A DNA stretch of 18,573 nucleotides, from positions 1 to 18,573 of the forward strand of contig JAPYWL010000019.1 of assembly GCA_028276365.1 (NCBI GenBank), read 5' to 3'. Both the position numbers and the translations under genes were made by a program. The DNA is from Deltaproteobacteria bacterium. GTDB lineage: Bacteria > DRYD01. Below, in pieces: positions 1 to 17,288 of this stretch (position 1 is its first letter; each line of letters starts with the position of its first letter). The notes below the pieces were generated by a model. It was not told where the DNA came from and did no database searches. It saw nothing but the letters and a program-made list of their open reading frames with translations.

Positions 1-5
1 AAAAA

Positions 6-77
6 GGGGCTGTAGCTCAGTGGGAGAGCGTCTGCTTGGCGTGCAGAAGGTCGGGGGTTCAAGTCCCCTCAGCTCCA
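6..77 (+). tRNA. tRNA-Ala (anticodon GGC)
   Basis: A complete cloverleaf can be folded by eye. The acceptor stem GGGGCTG pairs with CAGCTCC, with one G-T pair. The D arm is GCTC...GAGC, the anticodon stem TCTGC/GCAGA, and the seven-base loop TTGGCGT places anticodon GGC at 38-40. The T arm is GGGGG-TTCAAGT-CCCCT, with one G-T pair. The discriminator base is A77. The 3' CCA is not encoded, because ATC follows A77, so it would have to be added after transcription. It is by far the most GC-rich stretch nearby, as expected for a structural RNA in an AT-rich genome. Confidence 0.97.
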
Positions 78-103
78 ATCCTATCCCAATTTAAATAATT
101 AAA

Positions 104-844
104 ATGAATACAAAGAATATAAAAAAATTTCAAAATATAAAAAAAATCCTTAAAACCCTTTTAATTTTTACTATCCTTTTTAATATCCTAATTAACTTCT
201 CCTTTTCAATAAATCATAATAACTTAATAAATCATAATAACCTAAAAATTAATTCAATTAAATTTAACTTAGAAAATATTAATATAGAAAATAATCAAAT
301 AACTAATTTTCAACCTTCTATTATTTTTAAATTAAAAAACAACACCCCTAATTTCTCTAATTTTAATTATCCTAACTATAATAGCTTTTTAATATCTAAT
401 CAAAATCTTTTAAATAAAATATTATCATATAAATACGAAAACACATTTATAAATAATTATCAAATAAATTTATTCCCTATATTTTATAAAAATATGAACA
501 ATCTTGATACTGGATTTTATATTTTAAAACCATCAATAAATCCATTTAATAACTCAACAACATTATTAAATCCATATTTAGAATTTAATTACAATAAATC
601 AATTAACTATTTAACAAACATACAAACTAATAATTTTATACAAAATAATAATATTTTAAATAATTATAATCTTAATTATTTTATAAGTTTTAAAGAAGTT
701 TCAATAAAACTAAATAAAAAAAATACTATTAATACGACTTTAACTATAAGTACAAGTATTAATCTAAATAATATAGAAAATCTAAATAATCAAAACAATA
801 ATCTAATAAATAATTCCAATATAAGATTAACAATTAAATTTTAA
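104..844 (+). CDS. Asn-rich exported protein of unknown function
   Basis: I do not recognise this 246-residue protein. Residues 1-17 are lysine-rich, followed by a hydrophobic stretch to about residue 35 that looks like a signal peptide or N-terminal anchor, so export is inferred. The rest has extreme composition: about 67 of 246 residues are Asn, with almost no Gly, Val, Asp or Arg and no Ala, Cys or Trp that I can find. Residues 36-47 contain a duplicated INHNNL unit. The chain ends with alternating hydrophobic residues and a terminal Phe (RLTIKF), which resembles a last outer-membrane beta strand, but that is only suggestive. No good Shine-Dalgarno site precedes the ATG. An open frame this long is unlikely by chance in such AT-rich DNA, which is the main reason for believing it is a gene. 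Confidence 0.65.
   Translation: MNTKNIKKFQNIKKILKTLLIFTILFNILINFSFSINHNNLINHNNLKINSIKFNLENINIENNQITNFQPSIIFKLKNNTPNFSNFNYPNYNSFLISNQNLLNKILSYKYENTFINNYQINLFPIFYKNMNNLDTGFYILKPSINPFNNSTTLLNPYLEFNYNKSINYLTNIQTNNFIQNNNILNNYNLNYFISFKEVSIKLNKKNTINTTLTISTSINLNNIENLNNQNNNLINNSNIRLTIKF
209..244 (+). repeat. Two-copy 18-bp tandem repeat inside the Asn-rich gene
   Basis: Positions 209-226 and 227-244 are near-identical 18-mers (ATAAATCATAATAACYTA), differing at one base. They encode the duplicated INHNNL hexapeptide just after the signal-like segment. The repeat is in frame and adds six residues, consistent with slippage expanding the Asn-rich region. Confidence 0.85.
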
Positions 845-902
845 TCCCAAAAAATCTATAAAAGAAAAATCAGAAAATCATAATCAAAACTATATCTAAA
901 AA

Positions 903-1838
903 ATGGATTTTAAAAAATTGTCATTAGCTTTAGTTATTTCATCCTTAATAGAATTTTTTATATTATTTTTAATATTTTACTTTGATTATAATATCTATAA
1001 GCTTTATAAAGAAGGAAGAAAATTAACTTTACGAAATTTAAATTACTACATATCAAAGCAAAATCCTAAAATAGTTATACTAAATCTAAGGGATTACATA
1101 AATTACAAAGGAAAATTAAATAAAAATTTACTAAACAAAATAGTACCGGTCCTAAAGGAATGGATACTAACAAAAGATGCCTATTTTTTAGCTAATTCTA
1201 TAATAGATAAAGACAATAGAGCTCAACACTTAAGATTATCTAAATTAAGTCAAGATCCATATATAAGATACATTGCTAATACTTATTATTATGTTTTAGT
1301 ATCTAAAGAATTTTCAGAAGCATTAGGTAGTAGCTATCAAGATTTAAAAAACAAAATCCCTCAATCCTATAAATGGATAATAGAAATAATAGAAAAACCA
1401 ATTCTAAACGCTGCCAAAACATACTTAATTAATAAATTAAAAGAAACAGCAATAAATTCTCAAGATGATATATCAAAAAGTTTATCATTATCAGTATTAA
1501 TATCTGTTTTTAAATATTATGATGAAAACTTTTATATTAATTTTTTAAATACCAATACTCCTGTACTCTTTGTAATATCCACTATAGGATTATCTCAAAC
1601 AGGAGAATATCTAAATACTAAGCAAGAATACTTAAAAAATTTTGAAAAATATATATATTTTATCAATAACAAAGAGGATTTATATAAATACTATAGCATT
1701 TTTTTAATTTTAGTTTTTACAGATAAAAATAAAGCTATAAATTTATATAAAAATTACTTAGATTTTGATATTTTAAAAGAACCAAAAGATATAACTATTT
1801 CATTAGTAATGCTAAATTATCTTTATTCTTTAAAATAG
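903..1838 (+). CDS. Membrane-anchored helical protein of unknown function
   Basis: A 311-residue protein with one strong hydrophobic segment at about residues 8-28 (LALVISSLIEFFILFLIFY) and no cleavage motif, so it is probably an N-terminal anchor. The remainder (about 35-311) reads as a series of amphipathic helices rich in Lys, Asn, Tyr and Leu, possibly a solenoid fold. I see no catalytic motif and cannot name a family. It follows the Asn-rich exported gene by 58 bp on the same strand, and the two could share a transcript. It lacks a convincing ribosome binding site. It converges on hutU with only 32 bp between the two stop codons, and that gap shows no GC-rich terminator. Confidence 0.75.
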   Translation: MDFKKLSLALVISSLIEFFILFLIFYFDYNIYKLYKEGRKLTLRNLNYYISKQNPKIVILNLRDYINYKGKLNKNLLNKIVPVLKEWILTKDAYFLANSIIDKDNRAQHLRLSKLSQDPYIRYIANTYYYVLVSKEFSEALGSSYQDLKNKIPQSYKWIIEIIEKPILNAAKTYLINKLKETAINSQDDISKSLSLSVLISVFKYYDENFYINFLNTNTPVLFVISTIGLSQTGEYLNTKQEYLKNFEKYIYFINNKEDLYKYYSIFLILVFTDKNKAINLYKNYLDFDILKEPKDITISLVMLNYLYSLK

Positions 1839-1870
1839 TATATTTCTTAAATAGTAATTTATATTAAATT

Positions 1871-3511
1871 TTATTCAATCCAGTTAATATTTTTTTGTTT
1901 AGCAGTTTGCTTAGCTATAGGATAACCAGCATCAGCGTGCCTAATAACACCAATACCTGGATCATTAGTTAAAACCCTTTCTAATTTTTCATAAGTTAAT
2001 TTTTTTCCATCAGCAACTATTACAACCCCTGCGTGAATAGAATTCCCAATCCCTACTCCTCCACCATGATGAACAGATACCCAAGATGCTCCAGATGCAG
2101 TATTAAGTAAAGCATTTAATATAGGCCAATCAGCTATAGCATCTGAACCATCTAACATTCCTTCAGTTTCCCTATAAGGAGAAGCAACAGAACCTGTATC
2201 CAAATGATCTCTACCTATTACAATAGGAGCTTTAAGAACACCTTTTTCCACTAAATAATTAAAATATAATCCAGCTTTATCTCTTTCTTGATATCCTAAC
2301 CAAGAAATTCTAGCAGGTAATCCCTGGAATTTTATATAACTTTGAGCTTTATTTATCCAGTTAACTAATTTAGGGTTATCAGAAAATAGCTTTAATATAG
2401 CATTATCAGTTTCATAAATATCTTTAGGATCACCTGAAAGAGCAACCCATCTAAAAGGTCCTTTACCTTCAGAAAATAGATCCCTAATATACAGTTTAAC
2501 AAACCCTTCAAATTCAAAAGCATCTTTATATCCTGCTTTATAAGCTTGCCCCCTTATGTTATTACCATAATCAAAAACAATAGCTCCTTTTCTCTTAAAT
2601 TCTACCATTGCTTGACAATGTTTTACTATTGTTTCAAAGCTTCTCTTAATATATTCTTGGGGATTTTCTTTTCTTAATTTCAAAGCTTGTTCAAAATCCA
2701 TTTCAGGAACATAACCATTAAGTTCATCATGTGCTGAAGTTTGATCTGTAACAACATCCGGAATAATATCATTTTTAAGCATATAAGTATATAAGGTAGC
2801 AGCATTAACAGGTACCGCAATAGAAATAGCTTTACCTTCTTTCTTATACTCTAAGGCTGTTTTAATAGCTTGATCCATATCGTCTATTACCATATCCAAA
2901 TATCCTGTTTCTATTCTTCTTTGTATTCTCTTTTTATCCACTTCAGCTATTAAAGCTACTCCTTCATTAAATTTAATAGCTAAGGGTTGAGCTCCTCCCA
3001 TTCCTCCTAACCCAGCAGTTAAAACTAATTTATGCTTTAAATTAGAATTAAAATGTTTTTCAGCTAAAGTAGCAAAAGTTTCATAAGTACCTTGAATAAT
3101 CCCCTGAGTACCTATATATATCCAGCTACCAGCAGTCATTTGCCCATACATTATTAATCCTTTAGCTTCCAATTCTCTAAAATATTCCCAAGTAGCCCAC
3201 TTAGGTACTAACATTGAATTAACTATTAAAACCCTTGGAGATAATTCAAAAGTTTTAAATACAGCAACAGGCTTGCCCGATTGTATTAATAAAGTTTCAT
3301 CATTTTTAAGTTTAGTGAGAGCTTGTATTATTTTATAATAAGCGTCCCAATTCCTAGCTGCTTTTCCATTACCACCATATACTATTAACTCACTTGGATT
3401 CTCCGCTACTTCATTATCTAAGTTATTCATAAGCATTCTCATAGCAGCTTCCTGTGGCCAATCTAAACACGTTAGCTTATTACCTCTTGGAGCTTTTATA
3501 ACTACTTTCAT
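1871..3511 (-). CDS. hutU: Urocanate hydratase (urocanase)
   Basis: Urocanase converts urocanate to 4-imidazolone-5-propionate, the second step of histidine degradation to glutamate, using tightly bound NAD+ in the cytosol. The 546-residue length fits the family (about 550). Diagnostic blocks are [11 protein letters not shown] near residue 45, the NAD-binding loop GLGGMGGAQ at 167-175, [30 protein letters not shown], and [17 protein letters not shown] near the C terminus. In the segment [10 protein letters not shown] residue 403 is Ser (codon TCT). The families I know have Cys there, corresponding to the active-site Cys410 of Pseudomonas putida numbering. The start is supported by GGAGGTG at about 3518-3524. 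No hutH, hutI or hutG is in the window. Confidence 0.97.
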
Positions 3512-3558
3512 TCATTTTCACCTCCACATCACTCTTCAGCCCCTTTCTATTTCTTAAT

Positions 3559-3588
3559 ATTGTACCTTAACATTATTTTATTCTACAA
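3559..3588 (-). promoter_or_regulatory. Possible sigma-70 promoter of hutU
   Basis: Read on the minus strand, TTGTAG (3583-3588) and TACAAT (3559-3564) are separated by 18 bases, about 50 bases upstream of the hutU start. The -10 match is good and the -35 match is partial. The surrounding AT-richness makes chance matches common. The same 162-bp divergent gap also holds a TATAAT at 3615-3620 on the plus strand facing the next gene, but without a clear -35 box. Confidence 0.35.
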
Positions 3589-3673
3589 AGGAAATTTTTT
3601 TCTTTTTTCTAATTTATAATTATGAAACTTTTAATAAATAAATTAAATAAATACAAATAGCGGAGGTAAAAAA

Positions 3674-4162
3674 ATGGAAAATCAAATAGAAAACCAAAAT
3701 AATAACCAAAATAAAGGAACCTCTATAGTTGAACATTTTTCTAATATCTTAAATTATTTAGTAAATTCATATAATGCTTTAAACAAAGAACAAGATGAAT
3801 CTAAAAAAAATGAAATCATCAATAAACTAAATGAATTAAAAGAATATATACAAACTGATATAGAACAAATAAATGATATGCTAAATAGCTCATTAGAAAA
3901 AAAAGAAGAAGATCTAAATAATCCTAATTTATCCCAAGATGTAAGAGATTTCTTGATATCAATGCATGATGCTATGATTGATATCCATAATCATTTCCTA
4001 AGTATAGCAGAATCCTTTATTGAATTTATAGATACCTTAAATCCAGAAATTCTAAATAACATAAAAGATTCAATAAATAACGGTGTAATAAAGTTAGATG
4101 AATTCAATGAAATAAATAAACAACTAAAAGAACTATTAGAAAAACAAGAATTTAATGCTTAA
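3674..4162 (+). CDS. Small acidic helical protein of unknown function
   Basis: A 162-residue soluble protein with no signal peptide or membrane segment. It starts with an Asn/Gln-rich tail (residues 1-15) and is otherwise almost entirely helix-forming, rich in Glu, Asp, Asn, Lys and Leu. Heptad-like spacing of Leu and Ile near residues 50-80 and 140-158 suggests coiled coil or helical bundle structure. The start is well supported by CGGAGGT at 3661-3667, seven bases before the ATG, one of the best ribosome binding sites in the window, so it may be well expressed. It is transcribed away from hutU and toward the ATPase/nuclease gene 42 bp downstream. I cannot assign a family. The adjacency could mean an accessory partner of that ATPase, but copy B of the ATPase has no such neighbour. 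Confidence 0.8.
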   Translation: MENQIENQNNNQNKGTSIVEHFSNILNYLVNSYNALNKEQDESKKNEIINKLNELKEYIQTDIEQINDMLNSSLEKKEEDLNNPNLSQDVRDFLISMHDAMIDIHNHFLSIAESFIEFIDTLNPEILNNIKDSINNGVIKLDEFNEINKQLKELLEKQEFNA

Positions 4163-4190
4163 AAATAAAATTTAATTAAATTTTTTATTT
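4162..4190 (+). terminator. AT-only inverted repeat, possible weak terminator
   Basis: Immediately after the stop of the acidic protein, an AT-only palindrome is centred on TTAATTAA. Its left arm AAAATAAAATTTAA mirrors TTAAATTTTTTATTT on the right, which ends in T-rich sequence. It could form a hairpin in RNA, but with no G-C pairs it would be weak. It may partly separate this gene from the ATPase gene. Confidence 0.3.
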
Positions 4191-4204
4191 AATTTTAGCT
4201 AAAA

Positions 4205-5731
4205 ATGAAAAAATTACCGATAGGAATAAGTGATTTTAAAGAATTAATTAATGGAAATTACATATATGTAGATAAAACAGAGTATATATATAAGTTAATA
4301 AATAGTGGAAAATATTATTTTTTAAGTCGTCCTAGACGCTTTGGTAAATCTTTGTTAATCTCTACTATTAGATATCTTTTTGAAGGTCAAAAAGAATTAT
4401 TTAAAAACTTATATATCCAAGATAAATGGAATTGGGAAGAAATTTATCCAGTAATAAGAATAGATTTTGCCAAAACCCAAGTAAAAAATGAAGAAGAATT
4501 ACAAATGGAGTTAAAAGCTACAATAATAGAAACCGGAAGAAAATATGATTATGAATATAATCAAGAATATACAATAAATAGGAATTTAGAAAAATTAATA
4601 GAGAGGGTAAATGAGTTAAGTAAGAAGCAGGCGGTAATATTAATAGATGAATATGATAAGCCAATATTGGATAATATAGAGAAGAAGGAAGAAGTAGAAA
4701 GGATAAGAGAAGTATTAAAGGGATTTTATACAACATTAAAAGGATTAGATGAATATATCAAATTTGTCTTAATAACAGGGGTAAGTAAATTTTCTAAAGT
4801 ATCTTTATTTAGTGGGTTAAATCAGTTAGAAGATATCTCATTAAATAAAGATTTTGGTAATATCTGTGGTTATACTCAACAAGAACTAGAATTCTATTTT
4901 AAAGAATATTTACAAGGTCTAAATTTAGATGAAATTAAAGAATGGTATAATGGATATTACTTTTTACAAGATACACTTTATAATCCTTTTGATATCTTAT
5001 TATATTTAAAAAATAGGGAATTTAGGAGTTATTGGTATAAAACAGGTACACCAACTTTTCTAATAAAACTAATAAAAAAACAAAAATATGATATAACTAA
5101 ATTAGATAATATTATACTAAGGGAAAACATCTTAGAAAAATTTGATATAGAGGAAATCAAAATAGAAGCTCTAATGTTTCAAACTGGGTATTTAACAATT
5201 AAAGAAGTTTATCAAAAAGAGTATGGTCAAGAATATAAACTCGGCTTCCCTAATAAAGAAGTTAAAATCTCATTTAATGAAAACATCTTAGAATTTACCA
5301 TAAAAGAAGAGGTAAGATATAAACTGGTAGATGAAATAATAACAATATTAAAAAAAGAAGAGATAAAAAAATTAAAAGAAAAACTGGAAATATTAATAAG
5401 TAATATAAGTTATATGTATCTTAAAGAAGAAGCAAGCTATGTATTAGCTGTTTTTGTTTTGTTTTATTCATCAGGCTTAAATGTTATAACAGAAGACAAT
5501 ACATCAAAAGGAAGAATAGATTTAACAATTACAGTTAATAATTCCATAGTTTATATCCTTGAATTTAAAGTAATTCAAAATTCTAAAGAAAAAGGTAATG
5601 CTATAAAGCAAATATTGGAAAAAGAATATTATAAAAAATATTTAAATTATGATAAGGTCTATATAGTAGGGATAGAGCTAAATAAAACTAAAAAGCAAAT
5701 TGTTAATTTTGAATATCAACAAGTTAAATAA
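4205..5731 (+). CDS. AAA-ATPase / PD-(D/E)XK nuclease-family protein, copy A
   Basis: A 508-residue protein of the group that joins an AAA-ATPase-like domain (PF09820 type) to a C-terminal PD-(D/E)XK domain (PF08011 type). The N terminus (PIGISDFKELI...YVDKT) is typical. The P-loop is SRPRRFGKS at 41-49, with Lys48 and Ser49 expected to bind nucleotide. The Walker B-like strand VILIDEYDKP lies at 144-153. The nuclease-fold signature is GRID (436-439) followed by EFK (453-455), giving the D...ExK set. Cellular function is not established for the family, which is often present in many copies per genome. There is no clear ribosome binding site. It is a close paralog of the gene at 14964-16490, which has the opposite orientation. 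The CRISPR array begins 80 bp after its stop. Confidence 0.92.
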   Translation: MKKLPIGISDFKELINGNYIYVDKTEYIYKLINSGKYYFLSRPRRFGKSLLISTIRYLFEGQKELFKNLYIQDKWNWEEIYPVIRIDFAKTQVKNEEELQMELKATIIETGRKYDYEYNQEYTINRNLEKLIERVNELSKKQAVILIDEYDKPILDNIEKKEEVERIREVLKGFYTTLKGLDEYIKFVLITGVSKFSKVSLFSGLNQLEDISLNKDFGNICGYTQQELEFYFKEYLQGLNLDEIKEWYNGYYFLQDTLYNPFDILLYLKNREFRSYWYKTGTPTFLIKLIKKQKYDITKLDNIILRENILEKFDIEEIKIEALMFQTGYLTIKEVYQKEYGQEYKLGFPNKEVKISFNENILEFTIKEEVRYKLVDEIITILKKEEIKKLKEKLEILISNISYMYLKEEASYVLAVFVLFYSSGLNVITEDNTSKGRIDLTITVNNSIVYILEFKVIQNSKEKGNAIKQILEKEYYKKYLNYDKVYIVGIELNKTKKQIVNFEYQQVK

Positions 5732-5810
5732 AGAAACAAAAAAAATATTTAAAGTATTAAACTCCAAATTTAGTAAATGATGCAAAACATATAGATACAA
5801 TCGGTACATA
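5732..5810 (+). promoter_or_regulatory. Possible CRISPR leader
   Basis: These 79 AT-rich bases lie between the stop of ATPase copy A and the first, best-preserved CRISPR repeat. Since the repeat handle (ATTGAAAGT) and the decay gradient both place the leader on this side, this is where it should be. About the first 30 bases resemble the sequence after the stop of ATPase copy B (TAAATAAAGAAA...ATATTTAA), so that part may belong to the duplicated ATPase segment. No distinct promoter box stands out. Confidence 0.35.
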
Positions 5811-6166
5811 GTTTAGCTTACCCATAGGGGAATTGAAAGTATTTAATATTGGCCTAAATTCGTAGTATTTTGTTTTGTTTAGCTTACCCATAGGGGAATT
5901 GAAAGTTATTAACTCTTTTTTGTGAATAAGTAGTTAGTCTAAGTTTAGCTTATCCATAAGGGAATTGAAAGTAATTATTTGCTTTTTTATCTATTTCAAA
6001 TAGTTTTCTGCTTAGCTTACCCTTAATAGAATTGAAAGTAAAGAGATAAGGTAAGTATAGATAAGAAATAAGTGTAGATTACCTCCAGAAAATTCAAAGT
6101 TGATATAAAACAAAAAAAATAAAAAACTTACTCTTTCTTTAGCTTACCCACAGAGGATTTGAAAGT
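5811..6166 (+). CRISPR. Small six-repeat CRISPR array, decaying rightward
   Basis: Six units of about 30 bases begin at 5811, 5877, 5943, 6010, 6072 and 6137. The intact unit begins GTTTAGCTTACCC, has a short CCC-AT-A-GGG dyad and ends GGAATTGAAAGT. The ATTGAAA-type end matches repeats of type I-B and type III systems, where it forms the 5' handle of the crRNA, so transcription on the plus strand is inferred. Spacers are 5841-5876 (36), 5907-5942 (36), 5973-6009 (37), about 6040-6071 (32) and 6101-6136 (36). Repeats 1 and 2 are identical and repeat 3 differs at two positions. Repeats 4-6 carry more changes and repeat 5 is badly degraded (28-29 bases). This is the usual leader-distal decay. 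The last base of repeat 6 is within the ilvE stop codon. No cas gene is present in the window, so activity would depend on proteins encoded elsewhere. Confidence 0.88.
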
Positions 6167-7062
6167 TATTTAACTGTTTCTTCATCATAAACAGGAGTAG
6201 ACCAAAATGAAACATATTTTGGGAAATATTCCCTTATCTTAGTAGTGATATCTCCTGGGCAATATCTTACCTTTTTTCCGTTAATCTCACTAACTGGGAT
6301 AATTTCTGCTCCCGTACCCGTTAAAAACACCTCATCAGCATTAATTAAATCTTTTATATCTATTATATCTTCTTTTACTTTTATATTTAGTTCCCTACAG
6401 ATATCAATTACACTTGCTCTGGTAATACCTTCAAGAATCCCCACATAAGGAGGAGGTGTAATAACTACATCATTTTTTACAATAAATATATTATCAGCAG
6501 TACATTCAGTTATATACCCTTGAGAATTAAGCATAACCGCTTCTTGACAATTACTATAATTTGCTTCTATTTTTGCTAATATATTATTTAAGTAATTAAG
6601 TGATTTAATTCTAGGGGATAATATATCAGCAGAAGGTCTTCTAAAAGATGAGATAATAACTTTTAAACCTTTTTCATAATATTCTTTTGGATAAAGCTGA
6701 ATTTTATCAACTATAATAACTACCGTAGGTTTTGAACATTTTCTAGGATCTAAACCTAAATCCCCTACTCCCCTACTAACTACTAACCTAATATAAGCAT
6801 TTTCCCAATTCTCTTCCTCTAAATTGATTCTCACCACCTCTTTAACAATACCTTTTAATTCCTGGTAATCATAAGGTATATTTAAATCAATAACATTAGC
6901 AGAATAATACAATCTCTCTAAGTGTTCATTTAATTTAAAAATTTTTTTATTATAAACCCTAATTCCCTCAAAAACACCATCACCATAAAGGAATCCGTGA
7001 TCCCATACAGATATTTTTGCTTCTTCTTTTGGATATAATTTCCCATCTATAAAAACCTTCAT
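6166..7062 (-). CDS. ilvE: Branched-chain amino acid aminotransferase (class IV, PLP)
   Basis: This 298-residue cytosolic enzyme carries out the last step of valine, leucine and isoleucine synthesis, or the first of their breakdown: reversible transamination with 2-oxoglutarate and glutamate. The family start is clear (FIDGKLYPKEEAKISVWDHG, then YGDGVFEGIRVYN). The PLP lysine is Lys153 in RIKSLNYLNNILAKIEA. The later block GYITECTADNIFIVK is more typical of branched-chain than of D-amino acid aminotransferases, though the class IV subfamilies are hard to separate by eye. The ribosome binding site GGAAGGAG lies about 10-15 bases before the ATG. Its stop codon abuts the last CRISPR repeat. It lies downstream of hemB with a 301-bp gap, so it probably has its own promoter. 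Confidence 0.93.
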   Translation of the reverse strand: MKVFIDGKLYPKEEAKISVWDHGFLYGDGVFEGIRVYNKKIFKLNEHLERLYYSANVIDLNIPYDYQELKGIVKEVVRINLEEENWENAYIRLVVSRGVGDLGLDPRKCSKPTVVIIVDKIQLYPKEYYEKGLKVIISSFRRPSADILSPRIKSLNYLNNILAKIEANYSNCQEAVMLNSQGYITECTADNIFIVKNDVVITPPPYVGILEGITRASVIDICRELNIKVKEDIIDIKDLINADEVFLTGTGAEIIPVSEINGKKVRYCPGDITTKIREYFPKYVSFWSTPVYDEETVK

Positions 7063-7317
7063 AAAATCTAACTCCTTCCTTTATTTTTAATTAATAAATT
7101 TTTAGCTTAAAACCTATTCATTTATACTTACATTTATTTTTCATTTATTTTTACAATATAAATATTATATAAAGCTTTTTAAAAACCTTTATATGAAAAG
7201 TAGAAAAATTAGCCTATTTCACATTAACAGTTTTTTATTAAAAATTTATATGAAGGATTTTTTATCTTTTTACCTAATTCTTAATTCTTATATTGGAGTA
7301 AATATACATCTTCCTTA
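7063..7317. other. Intergenic stretch upstream of ilvE
   Basis: Together with the repeat at 7318-7363 this makes a gap of 301 bases between ilvE and hemB. It is AT-rich with no open frame of interest. ATTATA at 7164-7169, TATAAT on the minus strand, could be an ilvE -10 box, but I see no convincing -35. A half match to the CRISPR repeat (TTTAGCTTAAAACCTATTC) occurs near 7101-7119 and may be chance. Confidence 0.4.
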
Positions 7318-7363
7318 GTTTAGCTTAACCCATAGGGGAATTAAAAGAAGGGGGATTGAAAGT
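7318..7363 (+). repeat. Orphan CRISPR-type repeat with duplicated 3' half
   Basis: GTTTAGCTTAACCCATAGG begins a unit at 7318-7347 that matches the array consensus closely, with one inserted A and ATTAAAAG in place of ATTGAAAG. It is followed at once by 7348-7363 (AAGGGGGATTGAAAGT), a second copy of the 3' half carrying the proper ATTGAAAGT end. The orientation is the same as the array 1.15 kb to the left, and ilvE lies between them. It ends exactly one base before the hemB stop codon (7364-7366). There is no further repeat at array spacing on either side. Confidence 0.85.
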
Positions 7364-8380
7364 TTATAAGTATTTTTGAATTAGATATGGTAAAGATTTA
7401 GTAAAATAGGAGATAATAATATCAGCACCAGAGCGTTTAATAGACAGTAATATTTCTAATATTAATTTTTCTTCATCTATAAAGTTTGAAACATTTTTAA
7501 TCATTGCGTATTCTCCTGAAACATTATAAGCAGCTAAAGGTGTTTTAATTAATTGCTTTGCTTGATATATTATATCTAAGTAAGCTAATGCAGGTTTTAC
7601 CATTACTATATCAGCACCTTCTTCTATATCCTTTAAGATTCTGTTTATTGCTTGCTTAGGGGATAAAGGGCTTATTTGATAAGAGGATCTATCTCCGAAT
7701 TTAGGAGCAGAATCAGCTGCCTCTCTAAAAGGAGAATAAAATACTGAATTAAATTTAGCAGAATAAGCCATTATTCCTACATTATAATATCCTAATTTAT
7801 CTAACAGTTTTCTTATATAAGCTACTTGAAAATCCATATTAGAGCTAGGAGCAACAAAATCTACCCCCGCTTGAGCATAAGCTACTGCAGCCTTACCTAA
7901 TAATCCTAATGTTAAATCATTATCAACATAATTATTTATATCCACTACTCCACAATGCCCACTATCAGTATACTCACATAAACAAACATCAGCAAATAAT
8001 AAAATATCATCTTTAAACTCTTTTTTTAATAAATCTATAGATTTAACAACGATACTATCTTGATCATAAGCATATTTTCCAAATTTATCCTTCCTATCTT
8101 CTACTCCAAATAATATAAAATTCCTTATCCCTAAGTTTAAACATTCATTAACTTCTTTCAATAAATTATCAATAGATATTCTAAATATTCCTTTCATTGA
8201 TGAAATCTCTTCATTCTCTCCAAATCTCTTAATAAACAAGGGATAAATAAAATTATTAATATTTAAATTAACTTCAGATACTAATTTTATAATATTTTTA
8301 TTTTTTCTTAATCTTCTATCCCTTTTAGTTTTATTTAGAGAATTTATGATATCCCTGCTAATTATATTGAAGTCATTCAT
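7364..8380 (-). CDS. hemB: Porphobilinogen synthase (delta-aminolevulinic acid dehydratase)
   Basis: HemB condenses two molecules of 5-aminolevulinate to porphobilinogen in tetrapyrrole synthesis. The 338-residue length is normal. The two catalytic lysines are Lys209 in MAYSAKF and Lys262 in MVKPALAYLD. The metal site DVCLCEYTDSGHCG has Cys133, Cys135 and Cys143, the arrangement of zinc-dependent enzymes rather than the Asp-type magnesium form. PFREAADSAPKFGDRSSYQ and VSGEYAMIK are also conserved. The usual MDG before the substrate region is MDF here, a minor oddity. A GGGGAAGGG stretch precedes the ATG as a plausible ribosome binding site. The 614-residue gene lies 55 bp upstream on the same strand, so the two may be co-transcribed. 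The stop is one base from an orphan CRISPR-type repeat. Confidence 0.97.
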   Translation of the reverse strand: MNDFNIISRDIINSLNKTKRDRRLRKNKNIIKLVSEVNLNINNFIYPLFIKRFGENEEISSMKGIFRISIDNLLKEVNECLNLGIRNFILFGVEDRKDKFGKYAYDQDSIVVKSIDLLKKEFKDDILLFADVCLCEYTDSGHCGVVDINNYVDNDLTLGLLGKAAVAYAQAGVDFVAPSSNMDFQVAYIRKLLDKLGYYNVGIMAYSAKFNSVFYSPFREAADSAPKFGDRSSYQISPLSPKQAINRILKDIEEGADIVMVKPALAYLDIIYQAKQLIKTPLAAYNVSGEYAMIKNVSNFIDEEKLILEILLSIKRSGADIIISYFTKSLPYLIQKYL

Positions 8381-8435
8381 AATAACCCTTCCCCTTTCTT
8401 GAATTATTACTTTAAATTATTCAATTCTAATTTTA

Positions 8436-10280
8436 TTAGTTTTGAATTTTAATAAAATTTAAAGAAGAAACATAGTAATTATAAATAATATCAGTTAAAG
8501 CATCTTTAATTAGGTTTTCAGGAAATACTTGTAATAATTCAGAATAATCTTTTAAGATGAAATTTAAATTTTTATCAGAAACTACATTATTAATAATTAT
8601 ATTTAAATACTTAGATTTCAAGTTATCAAGAACATTATTAGAATTTAGGGATTCTAAATTTTGTAAAAAAGATAAAAACAATGTTTGATTTAATAAAAAT
8701 TTAGGATCATAAGTAGTAGTAAATCTTGGAATAATCCTAATTAATACACTATCAAGGGATTTTAAAAATGAATCAGTAGGATATATAGAATTATTAAATA
8801 TATTTGAAAAAGCTTTTTGATAAAGATACTCAGAATCTGGATATAATTTAAATAAATCCAAAATTTTAGATTTTATAATGCTTATGTATTTTTGGTAATT
8901 AGGATCAGATTTATTTAATTTAGTAGAAATTTTAGTAAGCAAATTTAATTTAAAATAAAATTCATTTGATTTAGGCATATTATTAAAAGTAGATAAAAAA
9001 ACTCTTAATGAGATTTTATTTAACATATCTAATAAAGCCATTATCTGATTTTTATCACTTGAAAAAGTTATATCAAAAATTGATTGGAATGCAGGTTTAT
9101 TGATAAAAAAGTTTCTTAAATTAGATAACATGGCTTTAAAATTAGTATCAATTTGATTAGTATTTAAATAGTTAATCATTACAGAAGTTAATAAAAACAA
9201 GTATAAATAATCTAAAGAATCTCCATTATTATTTTGACCAGATTTAATAGAATTAACTAAATAAGATGATACAGAATTAATATATAATGTACTTAAATTA
9301 GTTGCTATATTTTTTTTCAGTTCTTTTTTATCAAAATCTATATTATTAACTATGTTTTTTATTATATTATCTTGATTGGGCGTTATTATGGAATTATCTA
9401 GTAAATCAGGATTTACAGATTTAGATAAATTTAAATTATAAATAAAATTAATCAATTTACTAACTTCTTTTTCATTAGTTTTATAAGACACATTAAAATA
9501 GCTACTTAGTAAATCTACAAAAACTCTATAAAAATTAATATCCAAAATTTGTTTATTATTATCATAAAAAGATTTAAAAGAATCTTTTAAAGGTTTAATT
9601 AATTCAAAACACTCATTAATAAAAGAATCTACATTTAAATACATATCTTTAGTTAAGTAATTAAGATTAGATAAAACAAAGGATAAAGTTTTAGCTTTAA
9701 AGTATAATTCAAAAACTTTATCATAATAATTTGGATCAAGATTTATAGGATTTAAAGTAGGTAATATAGTTTTTATGTTATTTAAAATAAAGGCATTAGC
9801 TTCTGAGAAAATTGGTAAATTTGAAGATTTTTGATACTCTGATAATATATTATCGTTATTTTCTTTCATTAAATTCTCTACTTTACTAAGAACATCAGTA
9901 TAATTATAAGATCCTTTATTAGAAACTAAGAACGCTATATAAGATGAAATAGATACTAAATAATTAAAGTTTTTTAATAATGAAAGACTAAAGAAATTAT
10001 AAAAAGGTTCTAAAATTTTAGCTAAACCTATCTGGTTGTTTATTAATTTATTATCTTGAATAATATTTTCTAAGTTTTCATTTATAGCCTTATAAAGATT
10101 GGAATTATAAAATGAGTAATTATAATTGTTTTTAGCAAATATAAAAGTGCTGTATAAATCAGAAGAATTTAAATAGAAATCCTGTAATGATAAAATAGAT
10201 AATTCTTCTTTCTTGTTATTCTTTATTTTTTTGTAAATATTTTTAAAAAAACTGCTTACTTTTTTTAAATTTACTTCCAT
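8436..10280 (-). CDS. Large helical protein of unknown function
   Basis: A 614-residue protein that I do not recognise. It begins with a basic stretch (residues 1-25, many Lys) and has no signal peptide. No segment is long and hydrophobic enough for a clear membrane span, so a cytosolic location is inferred. It reads as continuous amphipathic helices rich in Asn, Leu, Ser, Lys and Phe with short polar turns, suggesting an alpha-solenoid or bundle. No nucleotide-binding or catalytic motif is visible. The start has no Shine-Dalgarno sequence. It lies 55 bp upstream of hemB and could share its transcript, but nothing in the protein suggests a role in haem synthesis. Confidence 0.8.
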   Translation of the reverse strand: MEVNLKKVSSFFKNIYKKIKNNKKEELSILSLQDFYLNSSDLYSTFIFAKNNYNYSFYNSNLYKAINENLENIIQDNKLINNQIGLAKILEPFYNFFSLSLLKNFNYLVSISSYIAFLVSNKGSYNYTDVLSKVENLMKENNDNILSEYQKSSNLPIFSEANAFILNNIKTILPTLNPINLDPNYYDKVFELYFKAKTLSFVLSNLNYLTKDMYLNVDSFINECFELIKPLKDSFKSFYDNNKQILDINFYRVFVDLLSSYFNVSYKTNEKEVSKLINFIYNLNLSKSVNPDLLDNSIITPNQDNIIKNIVNNIDFDKKELKKNIATNLSTLYINSVSSYLVNSIKSGQNNNGDSLDYLYLFLLTSVMINYLNTNQIDTNFKAMLSNLRNFFINKPAFQSIFDITFSSDKNQIMALLDMLNKISLRVFLSTFNNMPKSNEFYFKLNLLTKISTKLNKSDPNYQKYISIIKSKILDLFKLYPDSEYLYQKAFSNIFNNSIYPTDSFLKSLDSVLIRIIPRFTTTYDPKFLLNQTLFLSFLQNLESLNSNNVLDNLKSKYLNIIINNVVSDKNLNFILKDYSELLQVFPENLIKDALTDIIYNYYVSSLNFIKIQN

Positions 10281-10348
10281 ATTTTATATATTAATTTTAT
10301 TCCTTTTAAATAAGTAAAATATTTGTTAATTTTTAGTAAAAATTTAAA

Positions 10349-10440
10349 AATCAAAATCAAAATTCCCTTTAAAATAATACAAAATAACAAGAAATTCAAT
10401 ATACCAAAAAATCGTTATCACACTAAAAATTTCTATAATA
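10349..10440 (-). pseudogene. Relic of an MFS transporter gene
   Basis: These 92 bases align without gaps to 13494-13585 inside the intact MFS gene, with about 15 mismatches by eye (about 84% identity). Read on the minus strand, the fragment keeps FS-I---YI-F--ILYYFKG-FDFD in the same frame as residues about 245-275 of the transporter, then reaches TAA where the intact gene continues with YLG. Similarity fades on both sides. It is a decayed partial copy in the 265-bp gap between the 614-residue gene and the next plus-strand gene. Nothing else supportable lies in that gap apart from the ribosome binding site of the downstream gene. Confidence 0.8.
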
Positions 10441-10545
10441 TTAATTAAAAATATCTATTTTAGATTTGGTAATTTTATTTTGCTAATTTTATGAGGATTA
10501 CTTGGATAAAAAGTATAAAATAATAAAAGGAGAGGATATAAATTT

Positions 10546-11091
10546 ATGAATTATAAAAAAAATTCAAATCATAAAAAATTTAAAAATAAAGAATTTAAAA
10601 ATAAAAATAAGAAAGGCTTGTTCTTTGGTTTCTTAATAAAAAATATCGTAATATTTTTAGTAATTTTTATTTTAGCTTTTAAATTATTTATTCTTTATAG
10701 TCCATTATCAAGTGATAGAAAATATCAAGATTTTTATTTACAAGTAAAACATGTTTTAGACTTATCAATTGATTTTAAACTCAACCTAAGAAATTATAAC
10801 TTTAATGATATTTCTTTTAGTAAAGAATTTTTAACAAATTTCAGTATTTTATTTAAGCAATATTACATAAGAAATGATAAAATAATATTTATAAATGCTT
10901 TTAATACTCCTTGCTACTTTCAAGATAATAACTTTATAATAGAAACAATTGCTGATAAAAACTATATCCCTTTAAAGGTAATGTTAGATATAGACGCTAA
11001 TTTAGATGATGGGATTCCAAATACTGGAAAGATAAAAAGCAATGTAAATAACTATTATATAGGTTGTCAAATTATCATTAATCTTTATTAA
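10546..11091 (+). CDS. Membrane-anchored protein with acidic C-terminal loop
   Basis: A 181-residue protein. Residues 1-24 are strongly basic (Lys/Asn), residues about 25-50 form one hydrophobic helix (GFLIKNIVIFLVIFILAFKL), and the remainder is presumably outside the membrane. Near the C terminus is an Asp-rich loop, DIDANLDDGIPNTGKI, followed by a second Cys; the two Cys of NTPCYF and IGCQI could form a disulfide. Similar DDG-P-TG loops occur near the C-terminal disulfide of type IV pilin-like proteins, but the prepilin leader and Glu5 are absent, so I do not call it a pilin. GGAGAGG lies about 10-15 bases before the ATG. The PriA-like gene follows 53 bp downstream on the same strand. Confidence 0.75.
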   Translation: MNYKKNSNHKKFKNKEFKNKNKKGLFFGFLIKNIVIFLVIFILAFKLFILYSPLSSDRKYQDFYLQVKHVLDLSIDFKLNLRNYNFNDISFSKEFLTNFSILFKQYYIRNDKIIFINAFNTPCYFQDNNFIIETIADKNYIPLKVMLDIDANLDDGIPNTGKIKSNVNNYYIGCQIIINLY

Positions 11092-11095
11092 TTTT

Positions 11096-11135
11096 TTATT
11101 TTATTAATGAATTTATTATTTTATTAGTAAATTTA
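11096..11135 (+). repeat. Two-copy 20-bp AT tandem repeat
   Basis: Two adjacent 20-base units, 11096-11115 and 11116-11135, share TTATTTTATTA and a closing ATTTA and differ at about two or three positions. They fill most of the gap between the membrane-anchored gene and the PriA-like gene, where a ribosome binding site would be expected and none is seen. Confidence 0.65.
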
Positions 11136-11144
11136 ATTTATTAT

Positions 11145-12980
11145 ATGCAGGAATTAATATTTTTTGTAATATCTAAGAATTTTGGGATAAAAACAAAAGA
11201 AAAAACCATAAATCAAGATACTTTTAATCATATTTACTTCATAAAATTAAAAAACAATTACCTATATGGCTTTTTTTTAGAATCTAAAGATTTATTAAAT
11301 ATTTATAAAAACCACAATCCATTAATAATTAAACTTAATAAAATAAATATAATTGATCAACTTAAATTACCATTACTCAAAAAGATTCAAAATAATTTAA
11401 TAAATATTTTAAAGGAAACTAATCTAAATTTATTAAAAGTCCTAGAATCTTTAATAAAAAAAATAATAAAATTTAATTTAACACTTAAAGTAAAATTAAC
11501 TAATAAAACACATACTAAAACCAATAAGTACATTGAAGATTTAAAAAAAAAATATAATTTAGAAATCTTTAAAGATGATATAAAAGATAATGAAATAATA
11601 CTAAAAATAATATTAAAATCAAATACTCAAAAAGATATAAAAAAAGAATTGAAAAAAATTTCAAAAATCTTACAAATTCCTTTAAAATATCTAAAAAATA
11701 ATCAAATAGATTATGAATTTAATTTAAATGAAAATTACGAAGAACTATATAAAATTTTTTTCATTTTAAAAAATAACAAAAAAACTTTAAAATACAAATA
11801 TAACCATACAATATTCCCAAACTACAATTTAAATGATTTTTTAAATAACTTTAAAGATATTCTTTCTAAATTAGATAAAAACTTCATAAATGAAACCAAT
11901 ACAAATAAATTACATACCAAAAAAATAATCGTTTTTATTTTTATAAGAAATATAGAACAAATAATAAAAGATAAAAAATATATTATTTTAGAGAATCAAG
12001 ATATAATATTTTTTATTTCATCCTTTACAGGATTTTTAATCTATGATTATTTTGATTATATTTTAATATTTGATAGTTATACCTTCAAAAAAAATGAATT
12101 ATTAAACAAGTTATTAAATTTTAATAAAAACATCAACAAAATCTTTCTAAACTATCTTATAATTAAAAATAATAAAGATCATATAAAACTAATTTATGAA
12201 AAACTAAATAAAATAAAAGAAAAATTACATTCTTATAATACATTAATAACAGCTATTAAAAATAATTCAAATATAAATAATGAGTTTATTAACATTAATA
12301 ATAATTTTAACTGGTGGTATTTTACACAACATAATAAATTTTATTATATCTATTGTAGAAATTGTTTAAACAAGCCTTATTGTGAAAATTGCAATTCTAT
12401 TATAAAAGAAAAAATAAATCTCAAAATAAATAAAAGAATTTTTAATAAATTATACACTAAATTAAAATATAAAAAAATAAATATTGAGCAAATGATAAAC
12501 AATTTAGTATTAGAATGTAAAAATTGTGGATTAAAATATGATATATTTAATTGTCAATATTGTGATTCTTTTAATTGGAAAATAAAAATATTTGATCCTC
12601 AAAAATATATTAATCACATTCAAAATGAACTGAAAATAAAATTAAATAAAATAGATTATCAAAAAATATTTTCATTTTATTACGATATCTATTTAACTAA
12701 TTTAAGAGAAACATTAAAAAATAACTTTTCAAATATAATTATATTTGATTACTATTTCTTAGAATTTCCGTTTATTATAAAAGAACTAAACATTATTTTT
12801 AATTTATTAGAATTAGAAAGGATATTTAATCCTAAATATTTTTGTTCCCTTGAAAATAAAGAATTTTCTTTAATAGAATATATCTCAACTTTAACTACAG
12901 ATATTTATAATTTTGAAGAACATATGAATAATTTACTTGACTTAGAAGAAAAAATAAGAGAAATAAATACTAACCCATAA
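11145..12980 (+). CDS. Diverged PriA-like zinc-binding protein lacking helicase motifs
   Basis: A 611-residue protein very rich in Lys, Asn and Ile. Its firmest feature is an eight-cysteine set: Cys404, 407, 413, 416 (C-x2-C-x5-C-x2-C) and Cys458, 461, 470, 473 (C-x2-C-G-x7-C-x2-C, followed by DS). This matches the order and near-exact spacing of the two zinc sites of the primosomal helicase PriA, which precede its conserved C-terminal region. The link between the two quartets is about 25 residues longer than in E. coli PriA. The N-terminal 60 residues could be the 3'-DNA-binding domain. The Walker A (GSGKT) and DEAH motifs expected between are missing; IFDSYTF at about residue 300-310 sits where DEEH might be. 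Actinobacterial PriA also lacks helicase motifs, so a non-motor replication-restart role is possible. Another zinc-ribbon family is the alternative. No ribosome binding site is seen. Confidence 0.6.
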   Translation: MQELIFFVISKNFGIKTKEKTINQDTFNHIYFIKLKNNYLYGFFLESKDLLNIYKNHNPLIIKLNKINIIDQLKLPLLKKIQNNLINILKETNLNLLKVLESLIKKIIKFNLTLKVKLTNKTHTKTNKYIEDLKKKYNLEIFKDDIKDNEIILKIILKSNTQKDIKKELKKISKILQIPLKYLKNNQIDYEFNLNENYEELYKIFFILKNNKKTLKYKYNHTIFPNYNLNDFLNNFKDILSKLDKNFINETNTNKLHTKKIIVFIFIRNIEQIIKDKKYIILENQDIIFFISSFTGFLIYDYFDYILIFDSYTFKKNELLNKLLNFNKNINKIFLNYLIIKNNKDHIKLIYEKLNKIKEKLHSYNTLITAIKNNSNINNEFININNNFNWWYFTQHNKFYYIYCRNCLNKPYCENCNSIIKEKINLKINKRIFNKLYTKLKYKKINIEQMINNLVLECKNCGLKYDIFNCQYCDSFNWKIKIFDPQKYINHIQNELKIKLNKIDYQKIFSFYYDIYLTNLRETLKNNFSNIIIFDYYFLEFPFIIKELNIIFNLLELERIFNPKYFCSLENKEFSLIEYISTLTTDIYNFEEHMNNLLDLEEKIREINTNP

Positions 12981-13044
12981 ATAAACTAAATAATAAATAA
13001 ATAACTTACTTACGATATTTTCAAGTAAATTAAGAAATTATTGA

Positions 13045-14319
13045 TTAATTCTTTTGATAAAATAAAATTTGGTTTCTAAATAAAAAGAAAAATAAAATAG
13101 AAATCAATTGAATAGAAAAACTAAATAAGAGCATATAATCAAACCCTAATTTTTGATAAATCAAACCTAAAAATAAGCTACCAACAAACCAACTTAAGCC
13201 AAAAAAAGTATGGAATAATCCAAATCTTTTACCGATATTTTCTTCCTCACTTTTTAAAGATACTATTATTTTAAAAATAGTTTCTAAAGAACCCAAAGCC
13301 CATCCCCAAAACAATGAAACAATAATAAATATTAATACATTTTTTATAAAAAATAATAATACAGGATAAAAAACAACCAAAGCTAAAGAAAAAATAATAA
13401 CAAAAGTAGGATATTTTTTAAAAAAAATGGAACTAATAAATCCACCAACTGCACTACTTACCATCGCTATAGAATATAAAACAACTCCCAAATAATCAAA
13501 ATCAAAACTTCCTTTAAAATAATACAAAATAATAGGGAAATCAATATATCCAAAAGCTATTATCATACTAAAAATTACCATAATATAATAATGATTTAGC
13601 TTAAATCCAATTTTATTTTCTTTAGTATTAAATTTATCCTTTATTTCAATTTCTGTATCTTTTTTATGATCGTTAATATTATTTTTAATTTCATTTTCAG
13701 TTATTTTATTAAAGTAGATGTTAGCTAAAAATAGATGTAAAAAAACTAATAAAATAGGTATCCCTAACATAAGAAAAGCTAATTTATAATGATAAATATC
13801 TTTAAATTTAAAATAAAAAAAGAAAAAGGATAAAATCAAAGGTCCAATAAAAGCTCCTAATTGATCCATTAAATGATGTATCCCAAATATTTTATTACTT
13901 TCTATATTACATTTATTAGAAACAATAAAAAAGACAGAATCCCTAGGTGGAATTCTTAATCCTTTACCAAATCTTTCCAAAAATACTAAAAACCAAACAA
14001 AATAATAACTATTAGCAAAATATAATAATGGGACACTAATAAGATTTAAAAAATATCCTAAATATATTATTAAAAATTTTGCTTTCCTAAATTTATCAAC
14101 AAAATATCCAATAAAATATCTAACAGAATACCCAATGAATTCAGAAAAACCAGCAACTAATCCTAAATAAAAAACAGGGATATTTAATAATAAAAAATAT
14201 TGTCCTAAAATAGATCTACTACCTTCATAAATAAAATCCGCTAAAAAACTAACTATACTTAAATTTATTACTACTAACCACCCATACTTCCTTAAATTAA
14301 AATAATGTTTATTATCCAT
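13045..14319 (-). CDS. Major facilitator superfamily transporter
   Basis: A 424-residue polytopic inner-membrane protein with about twelve hydrophobic segments, probably a proton-coupled secondary transporter of unknown substrate. The cytoplasmic loop GYFVDKFRKAKF fits MFS motif A between helices 2 and 3. ERFGKGLRIPPRDS at about residues 114-127 is typical of a broad bacterial MFS group. The central loop, about residues 205-235, is long and charged (Lys, Glu, Asn), as usual between the two halves. There is no strong Shine-Dalgarno site. It converges on the PriA-like gene with 64 bp between the stops. A decayed fragment of a second copy lies at 10349-10440. The substrate cannot be inferred from the neighbours. 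Confidence 0.9.
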   Translation of the reverse strand: MDNKHYFNLRKYGWLVVINLSIVSFLADFIYEGSRSILGQYFLLLNIPVFYLGLVAGFSEFIGYSVRYFIGYFVDKFRKAKFLIIYLGYFLNLISVPLLYFANSYYFVWFLVFLERFGKGLRIPPRDSVFFIVSNKCNIESNKIFGIHHLMDQLGAFIGPLILSFFFFYFKFKDIYHYKLAFLMLGIPILLVFLHLFLANIYFNKITENEIKNNINDHKKDTEIEIKDKFNTKENKIGFKLNHYYIMVIFSMIIAFGYIDFPIILYYFKGSFDFDYLGVVLYSIAMVSSAVGGFISSIFFKKYPTFVIIFSLALVVFYPVLLFFIKNVLIFIIVSLFWGWALGSLETIFKIIVSLKSEEENIGKRFGLFHTFFGLSWFVGSLFLGLIYQKLGFDYMLLFSFSIQLISILFFFLFRNQILFYQKN

Positions 14320-14431
14320 TTTATATTATAATTTTCAATTTTTAATTATAAATAACCTTTTAAATTTTTTCAAAATTTTTAAACACTTTGAATATTAATA
14401 AAACAAAATTAATAAAAAATAAAAAATTAAT

Positions 14432-14467
14432 AAAAAATAAAAAAGGGGGTAGTTTAAATACTCCCCC
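14432..14467 (-). terminator. Intrinsic terminator of the delta-60 lipoprotein gene
   Basis: Read on the minus strand, GGGGG-AGT-loop-ACT-CCCCC forms an eight-pair stem with a bulged T and a six-base loop, followed by TTTTTTATTTTTT (complement of 14432-14444). It lies about 40 bases past the stop of the lipoprotein gene. It is the only GC-rich hairpin in the window's intergenic DNA, and is extended by a run of eight C on the plus strand (14463-14470). Confidence 0.8.
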
Positions 14468-14506
14468 CCCTAATACCTTTTTCTTTTTTTTTATTTAATC
14501 TACTTC

Positions 14507-14809
14507 CTACTTATACTTCCATATTACCATATCATAATTACCACTACTATTTTTACTAAAACCAGTTACATATATCTTACCATTACTATCTACATATATT
14601 GAATTACCATAATCCTCAGAATCAGAGCCCGCTGCGTTATCATGGACTACAAATCCTGTACCATTAAATGAAGTATCTAATACTCCACCAGATCCACCAC
14701 TTTCTCCAGATCCACCACTTCCTCCAGATCCGCCACTTCCTCCGATACATCCTGTCACTATTGATATCATTATATATGCTACTATTATCCATAATATCCA
14801 TTTTTTCAT
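14507..14809 (-). CDS. Short lipoprotein with one delta-60-type propeller unit
   Basis: A 100-residue protein. Residues 1-20 form a lipoprotein signal peptide with VTGC as lipobox, so Cys21 would be lipidated and the protein anchored in a membrane. Residues 22-42 are a flexible Gly-Gly-Ser linker. Residues 43-100 are one repeat of the delta-60 / DUF5122 beta-propeller type: LDTSFNGTGFVV, then SIYVDSNGKIYVTGFS and a final DMVIWKYK. Such proteins normally carry many of these units, so this is either a minimal form or a truncated gene; the frame ends in TAG where the next unit would begin, and no continuation is visible before the terminator. AGGAGGTG at about 14816-14823 gives a strong ribosome binding site. 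It is isolated, with its own terminator. Confidence 0.85.
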   Translation of the reverse strand: MKKWILWIIVAYIMISIVTGCIGGSGGSGGSGGSGESGGSGGVLDTSFNGTGFVVHDNAAGSDSEDYGNSIYVDSNGKIYVTGFSKNSSGNYDMVIWKYK

Positions 14810-14963
14810 TTTTTCACCTCCTTTTTAGATTGATTAATATATTATTTTAGAAAAGAAAAAAAAAAAATCCTGCTAAAATTTCTTTAATTTTAATATCTGT
14901 AAATTAGGACAAAAATGGTTTTAAAATTCTTTTAAGCTTAAATTCCTTAAATATTTTTTTTCT

Positions 14964-16490: not shown

Positions 16491-16622
16491 TCCTCTTACA
16501 CCTCTATTTTATTTAAATTTAGAAATAACTTTCTCATTTTAGTATTATATTTTTTTTCCTTATCTTCCTATACGACATTAAGAGGTTTTATAAATCTTAA
16601 AGTAGAAATAAATAAAAGAGAT

Positions 16623-17288
16623 ATGATGAAAAATTTAAGCTCCTTAAAAAGTTTAAATTTAAGATTTTTATTTTTTTTATTTTTAGTTTTTATTTTTATA
16701 AACAATTATGCTGAATCCCAAAATTCAAATCAATATTCTAATCAAAGCTCAATAGATTATAAAGATTTATATAAAAAAGTGTATAAAACTTTAGAATATG
16801 AAAAAGCTAAGTATGGAGATTTAAATAATTATGTTGATTTAACTTATGAATATGAAGGGATAAGTTTAAGTTTTAGATTGTATATGAGGGAAGAAGAAAA
16901 AAGTTTGTATATAAAAAATTTATCTGAAACTTGGGAAAATAACATAATAAGAGTATCAAAAGGAGTAAAAGAATATTGGGGTTATGTATTTAGATATGCA
17001 CTATTTATTATATATAAAAAACAAGGGAATATCTACTGGAAGATTTATTCAACAGATAAAGGGCAGGAATTATTTGGAGGCTTCTTAAGTAGTGAAAATG
17101 TATTAGAAAAAGAGTTAAGGGATGTATATTTTGCTCCTTATAAAAAAGGAGCTTTCACTTCTTTAGTTTTCTTTGATTCACTTAATAAAATGTATTATCA
17201 AATTTATTATATAGACATTTGGGGAAGGCACGACTTAGTTTATAAATCCAATATATCCGATAATCCCTATGATACAGGAAATAAATGA
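16623..17288 (+). CDS. Exported protein of unknown function, overlapping the TgpA-like gene
   Basis: A 221-residue protein. After a basic N terminus, residues about 14-28 are strongly hydrophobic (FLFFLFLVFIFINN), followed by AES, giving a plausible signal peptide cleaved near residue 31. The mature part is rich in Tyr, Lys, Glu and Asn with alternating patterns that suggest beta structure (for example VDLTYEYEGISLSFRLYM and SLVFFDSLNKMYYQIYYIDI). I do not recognise a family. There are two candidate starts, ATG at 16623 and 16626; neither has a strong ribosome binding site, with only AAAGAG upstream. Its last 20 bases overlap the start of the next gene, so the two are probably translated together and may act on the same extracytoplasmic target. 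Confidence 0.8.
   Translation: MMKNLSSLKSLNLRFLFFLFLVFIFINNYAESQNSNQYSNQSSIDYKDLYKKVYKTLEYEKAKYGDLNNYVDLTYEYEGISLSFRLYMREEEKSLYIKNLSETWENNIIRVSKGVKEYWGYVFRYALFIIYKKQGNIYWKIYSTDKGQELFGGFLSSENVLEKELRDVYFAPYKKGAFTSLVFFDSLNKMYYQIYYIDIWGRHDLVYKSNISDNPYDTGNK

Follow-up and report, generated by a model that had tools for sequence, protein, structure and literature searches.

CRISPR leader–repeat units without spacers lie dispersed at gene ends in a deltaproteobacterial genome

Contig JAPYWL010000019.1 of a Deltaproteobacteria bacterium (assembly GCA_028276365.1), analyzed over positions 1–18,573 and called the window here, raises the question of why repeats of the CRISPR (clustered regularly interspaced short palindromic repeats) type should end at the stop codons of two genes, ilvE and hemB. 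At ilvE it is the last repeat of a short array, and at hemB an isolated copy; their coordinates place both antisense to the gene, as the initial annotation had remarked. That annotation considered ordinary array decay a poor explanation for such junctions and took the lack of any other gene-end copy in the genome as the observation that would speak against it. About 20 gene-end copies were found, and the view is borne out. Its suggestion that single repeats spread to gene ends holds for the placement at these ends but not for the spreading piece, which is a unit of CRISPR leader plus repeat.

At hemB, the repeat does not stand alone: ~115 nt from the end of the CRISPR leader precede it and a half repeat follows, all on the forward strand. 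The leader-proximal core (7202–7317) begins with AGAAAAATTAGCC and closes with ...TTGGAGTAAATATACATCTTCCTTA in an alignment of 24 junctions, and it matches the consensus of the dispersed units at 85% over its whole length. This stretch, which is common to true array leaders, had been overlooked in the first reading of the sequence. The single repeat (7318–7347) carries one inserted A (1 nt) and has the variant end GAATTAAAAG. It is followed by a 15-nt 3′ half repeat, AAGGGGGATTGAAAG (7348–7362), that is also present in several other solo units. A single T lies between the half repeat and the hemB stop codon at 7364–7366, confirming the reported position of the copy one base short of the stop. 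The gene itself (7364–8380, reverse strand) encodes delta-aminolevulinic acid dehydratase (ALAD, PF00490, E 8.5e-123).

The window lies on contig C66 of one fragmented metagenome-assembled genome (MAG; 124 contigs, 87% complete), and C numbers refer to its contigs unless marked G001. Contig breaks fall inside arrays; the analysis was made on stretches fetched around matches, with mechanical open reading frame (ORF) calls. The genome holds 107 copies of the repeat, the bulk of them in big arrays on C72, C84, and C59. About 15 are solitary, and these have a common upstream sequence, the proximal CRISPR leader. On C84 and C59 this part of the leader precedes true arrays, and on C68 and C71 it stands at contig ends. 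A search with a 131-nt leader-plus-repeat consensus returned 24 junctions, comprising four array-type leaders and 20 solo units. The C68 and C71 junctions, in each of which the contig stops 20 nt past a single repeat, are taken to be arrays, and C54:21209, 365 nt off a contig end, was counted as a solo because thrS sequence comes after it. The dispersed piece is 130–160 bases long, contains the leader end and one repeat but no spacer, and occurs at about 20 sites: C51:3717, C5:28629, C83:11715, C1:9051, C104:1924, C87:66139, C48:608, C106:29520, C16:549, C5:3690, C6:23945, C66:7202 (the window), C72:6924, C124:58477, C54:14340, C70:16987, C61:2412, C120:962, C54:21209, and C83:19819.

The placement of these units is far from random. 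In 17 of the 20 solos, the unit turns its repeat end toward an antisense gene, whose 3′ end lies at −27 to +53 nt. As the C16 and C83a units belong to a segmental duplicate, this corresponds to 16 of 19 independent units, against 0.21 per site expected for random intergenic position and orientation (p = 6.7e-9). Wherever the flanking genes form a clear co-directional pair, the repeat faces the stop of the upstream gene (13/13, two-sided p = 2.4e-4). When the half repeat is counted as part of the unit, no more than 10 nt separate many solos from the stop, many right edges lying at 0–9 nt, and at C6, C54b, and C83b the insertion is a few codons inside the gene.

The congener G001 keeps the gene pairs adjacent without a unit at no fewer than seven sites, among them those of C61 (lepA), C87, C54a, C54b (thrS), C6 (ftcD–hemE), C106 (relA-type), and C83b (gene names by eye). 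Because the same pairs are adjacent there without a unit, the units are insertions. With the unit removed from C6 (ftcD), a continuous frame ending FKKTLDIKE* is obtained, matching FKKIIEFQVE* in G001; thus, the unit entered about 16 nt before the stop. The gene now ends in FQFPYG*, supplied by the unit, and thrS now ends in LSIPLWVS*. The C51 and C5a sites have other DNA between the genes in G001, and for hemB, which is followed by a different gene there, no clean empty site is available for comparison. At least seven of the insertions are thus demonstrably later than the split from this nearest sequenced congener. G001 has homologous leaders, a related repeat, and four arrays plus one decayed array, with no proliferation. 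In the other genus of the family, the leader type of G005 is limited to one locus, without dispersal. The nearest named relative is the uncultured MAG SRR5214706_bin.133, and the leader–repeat junction pattern had no match in named genomes, a collection that may omit the window's own genome. Proliferation is present in one genome only, this MAG.

The units also show a sub-family structure. Most solos have their left end at or near AGAAAAATTA and their right end at GAAAG, whereas the array leaders, together with C72:6808 and in part C87, have a further distal portion, at least 130 nt long, upstream of this point. A 10-nt deletion (TATTATGAAGG versus TATTAAAAATTTATATGAAGG) is found in 13 solos and in no array leader. 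Many solos have an altered leader end, GTAAATATACATCCTTCCTTA (GTAAATATACATCC..), compared with GCAGATATATAGCATACGA of the arrays, where the solo form is absent, and several close with GAATTAAAAG and the half repeat AAGGGGAATTGAAAG. The truncated leader, the deletion, and the altered end, held in common, indicate that most units descend from units and not from separate array collapses. At a relic, C70:14304–14542, the distal leader is fused straight to the repeat at the point where the solos start.

We propose that the leader-proximal ~100–115 nt and one repeat, in some cases with a 3′ half repeat, form a dispersed non-coding miniature element, and we consider this likely. Such units would insert with the repeat edge at, or a few nucleotides from, a stop codon and with the leader pointing antisense into the gene, the hemB copy being one example. 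Copies may arise from copies through an integrase acting in trans. Their placement could reflect tolerance of insertions just behind stops combined with selection against leaders firing into the next gene, to which some insertion preference possibly adds. Several points weigh against this proposal. The placement background rests on crude ORF calls within the fetched stretches, and two units depart from the rule, C124 lying between divergent genes and C1 having no clear gene; C72:6924, the third exception, has the same orientation but is 113 nt away. The left ends of the solos differ by a few nucleotides, and target duplication at the insertion sites did not exceed permutation. In the tree, array leaders group with C54:21209 (ultrafast bootstrap 96) and C124 (ultrafast bootstrap 86), and the remaining branches are weak because leader ends look mixed among copies. 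Among transposases the search covered the Y1 family only (PF01797); neither it nor the reverse transcriptase families had a match in the genome, which is 87% complete.

The array at ilvE occupies 5811–6165 on the forward strand. Its repeats lie at 5811–5839 and 5877–5905 (both perfect), 5943–5971 (two mismatches), 6010–6038 (decayed), probably 6072–6099 (badly decayed, recognized by eye from its fit to the ~66-nt period), and, at the trailer end, 6137–6165 (three mismatches over the 28-nt core). Regular repeats, unique 37-nt spacers, and a repeat identical to that of the C72, C84, and C59 arrays identify it as a type I-B array; no repeat match arose by chance in the window across 200 shuffles. 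Position 6165 is the last base of the final GAAAG, and 6166–6168 hold the ilvE stop codon (TTA on the forward strand). The last repeat is thus located at the stop, as described, but it abuts the codon and does not end inside it. The gene (6166–7062, reverse strand) is an ilvE-type branched-chain aminotransferase (Aminotran_4, PF01063, E 4.3e-66). No leader was found directly upstream of the array, before 5811, where its expected position is occupied by an AAA-ATPase-like/PD-(D/E)XK (DUF1703-type) gene at 4205–5731 on the forward strand (PF09820, PF08011). We regard the array as an old one that has since lost its leader. A second copy of the ATPase-like gene lies inverted at 14964–16490 (reverse strand), with ~85% DNA identity. 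Genes with a similar N-terminal sequence adjoin the solo units at C104 and C1, and a C-terminal fragment is found at C72; these extra copies make it a multicopy family in the genome.

One alternative derives every solo from a full array of its own, which recombination between the first and the last repeat would have reduced to a relic. Collapse would yield an identical end structure, the long distal leader is retained, whole or in part, by the solos at C72:6808–7051 and C87:66139, and short arrays in decay exist (window 5811–6165, C70:14304–14542, and G001 C26:24112–25029). However, the distal leader is missing in 18 of 20 solos and present in all four arrays with a fully readable leader, and neither the deletion of the 13 solos nor the leader end that many combine with the half-repeat tail is known in any array. 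Collapse would still need prior dispersal of 20 arrays to 20 gene ends, and we regard it as unlikely. The initial annotation had alternatively suggested insertion of ilvE or rearrangement within a longer array, which would have left a piece at hemB, and had advised a synteny check. In G001, the two genes are indeed on different contigs: hemB (C39) keeps its upstream neighbors without ilvE beside it, and ilvE (C29) lies between mutL-like and acyl-CoA-dehydrogenase-like genes (names by eye). Their separation indicates a rearranged neighborhood in one of the two lineages, and the two directly oriented repeats flanking ilvE, which would fit recombination between units, are a plausible substrate for it. 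Nevertheless, a leader end of its own immediately precedes the repeat of the hemB copy, which is therefore a whole unit rather than a fragment of a trailer, so that the splitting of a single array is unsupported. The same layout is also found at genes with unchanged neighbors, which makes this explanation highly improbable.

Two further alternatives concern the gene ends themselves. Insertion might be truly targeted to stop-proximal DNA by dedicated machinery, beyond mere tolerance, as the many right edges at 0–9 nt and the three insertions a few codons inside genes could imply. Conversely, target duplication does not exceed permutation, the flanks have no obvious target motif, the C124 unit lies between divergent genes, and compact intergenic DNA under purifying selection could produce the same pattern; we find targeting doubtful. 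The units might instead be retained for work at gene 3′ ends, such as transcript processing, termination, or antisense or CRISPR RNA (crRNA)-like regulation from a leader promoter. The tight placement and fixed orientation are consistent with this, and the leader core would be expected to bear a promoter aimed at the gene 3′ end. Yet RNA folding gave no signal on either strand (no better than shuffles, z −0.5 to +1.0), and the weak, 3-bp stem of the unit is not followed by a T-run in the gene sense; the earlier idea of the hairpin as a 3′-end processing or terminator signal thus finds no support from folding. A crRNA role would require the second full repeat and spacer that are missing, and the genes affected are unrelated and have no unit in the congener. 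A retained 3′-end function is thus very unlikely, while the leader might exert regulation through antisense transcripts.

If the element proposed above is mobile, it may also bear on how arrays arise. The trailer ends of arrays lie at antisense stops in all four readable cases in this genome (window, C70, C72, and the C70 relic). The distance is 0 nt to the ilvE stop in the window and 0 nt to a short infA-looking gene for the C70 array, and in the C72 array and the C70 relic the antisense stop sits within the half-repeat tail. In G001 the same holds for three of four trailers: C22 at 6 nt, C16 and C4 at ~76 nt, where a half-repeat tail separates trailer and stop, with C26 as the exception. The trailers at C72 (L045 2561–2680) and C70 (L040 14250–14330) close in runs of 3′ half repeats (GAAGGGGATTGAAAG) that hold the antisense stop codon. 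Because arrays place their trailer edge as the units do, they probably start from such units, extending between leader and first repeat. This supports, without proving, the growth of arrays from leader–repeat units planted at gene ends. More tentatively, the units could be mobile and also give rise to arrays: some dedicated process, perhaps one that depends on Cas1, would plant a spacer-less unit behind a stop, and each trailer end would then record a founding insertion.

The genome has a single Cas1, within a type I-B locus (cas8b, cas7b, cas5b, cas3b, a short cas4, cas6b, and cas1b) directly upstream of the C84 leader. The array next to this locus has 32 repeats, and spacers are 35–40 nt long; within the fetched stretches, no spacer fully matched a site outside its own array. 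The cas4 frame (L138 4638–4982, 114 aa) matches Cas4 profiles over their C-terminal two thirds only and is perhaps truncated or frameshifted. The array leaders at C84, C59, C68, C71, and G001 C26 contain a conserved mid-leader inverted repeat (CTGTCGAT...ATCGACAG) with a T-run behind it. It resembles an intrinsic terminator, and the start of the solo units falls within its loop. C16:1–11700 (L038) and C83:7800–15800 (L041) form a several-kb segmental duplication with a solo unit at the matching place. The differing leader ends and tails of these two solos would suggest recombination or conversion between units. To the right of the C1 unit (L035), imperfect short repeats of the TTCAATTGAC type follow one another in tandem over a long stretch, up to an AAA-ATPase-like gene.

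Several known systems are comparable in part. CreA of CreTA involves ectopic CRISPR repeats, mostly two pseudo-repeats around a pseudo-spacer, with a partner toxin (PMC9458426). Like CreA, the present repeats lie outside arrays, are tied to a type I system, and are partly degenerate; in contrast, they form units of leader core and one repeat, with at most an attached half repeat and no pseudo-spacer, and ~20 copies of them are dispersed. Viruses and proviruses carry solitary repeat units (SRUs), single host-like repeats without spacers (reviewed in PMC8616872), whereas our units are chromosomal, accompanied by a leader, multicopy, and at gene ends. Exact patterns of the repeat and of the leader–repeat junction had no relevant match in 2.9 million viral contigs; the single viral contig matching the latter proved by inspection to be unrelated, GC-rich sequence. 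Repetitive extragenic palindromic elements (REP/REPIN) and miniature inverted-repeat transposable elements (MITEs) are short dispersed miniature families (PMC3116915). Similarly, the units are a short non-coding extragenic family derived from a larger element and presumably moved in trans, with multiple copies, common ends, and empty orthologous sites. They differ in having the sequence of a CRISPR leader and repeat and ends without inverted repeats, none being visible by eye in the alignment, and the genome yielded no Y1/RAYT transposase. In the literature searched, where subscription journals were thinly covered, there are ectopic repeats, SRUs, and mini-CRISPRs, but a dispersed leader-plus-repeat family was not met with.

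Methanocaldococcus jannaschii reportedly has dispersed multi-array CRISPR families of a long segment and short repeats, described by Bult et al. in 1996, which would resemble the present case in their many loci, common leader-like segment, and few repeats. We know of no report of gene-end placement or a spacer-less sub-family in that organism.

For the question of how new CRISPR arrays originate at a distance from cas genes, empty site, seed, array, and relic form a direct natural series in which array origin can be tested. The dispersed units suggest that parts of a CRISPR locus are able to scatter like a small mobile element; they would then constitute a CRISPR-derived repeat family that acts as a miniature mobile element and rewrites the C-termini of genes.
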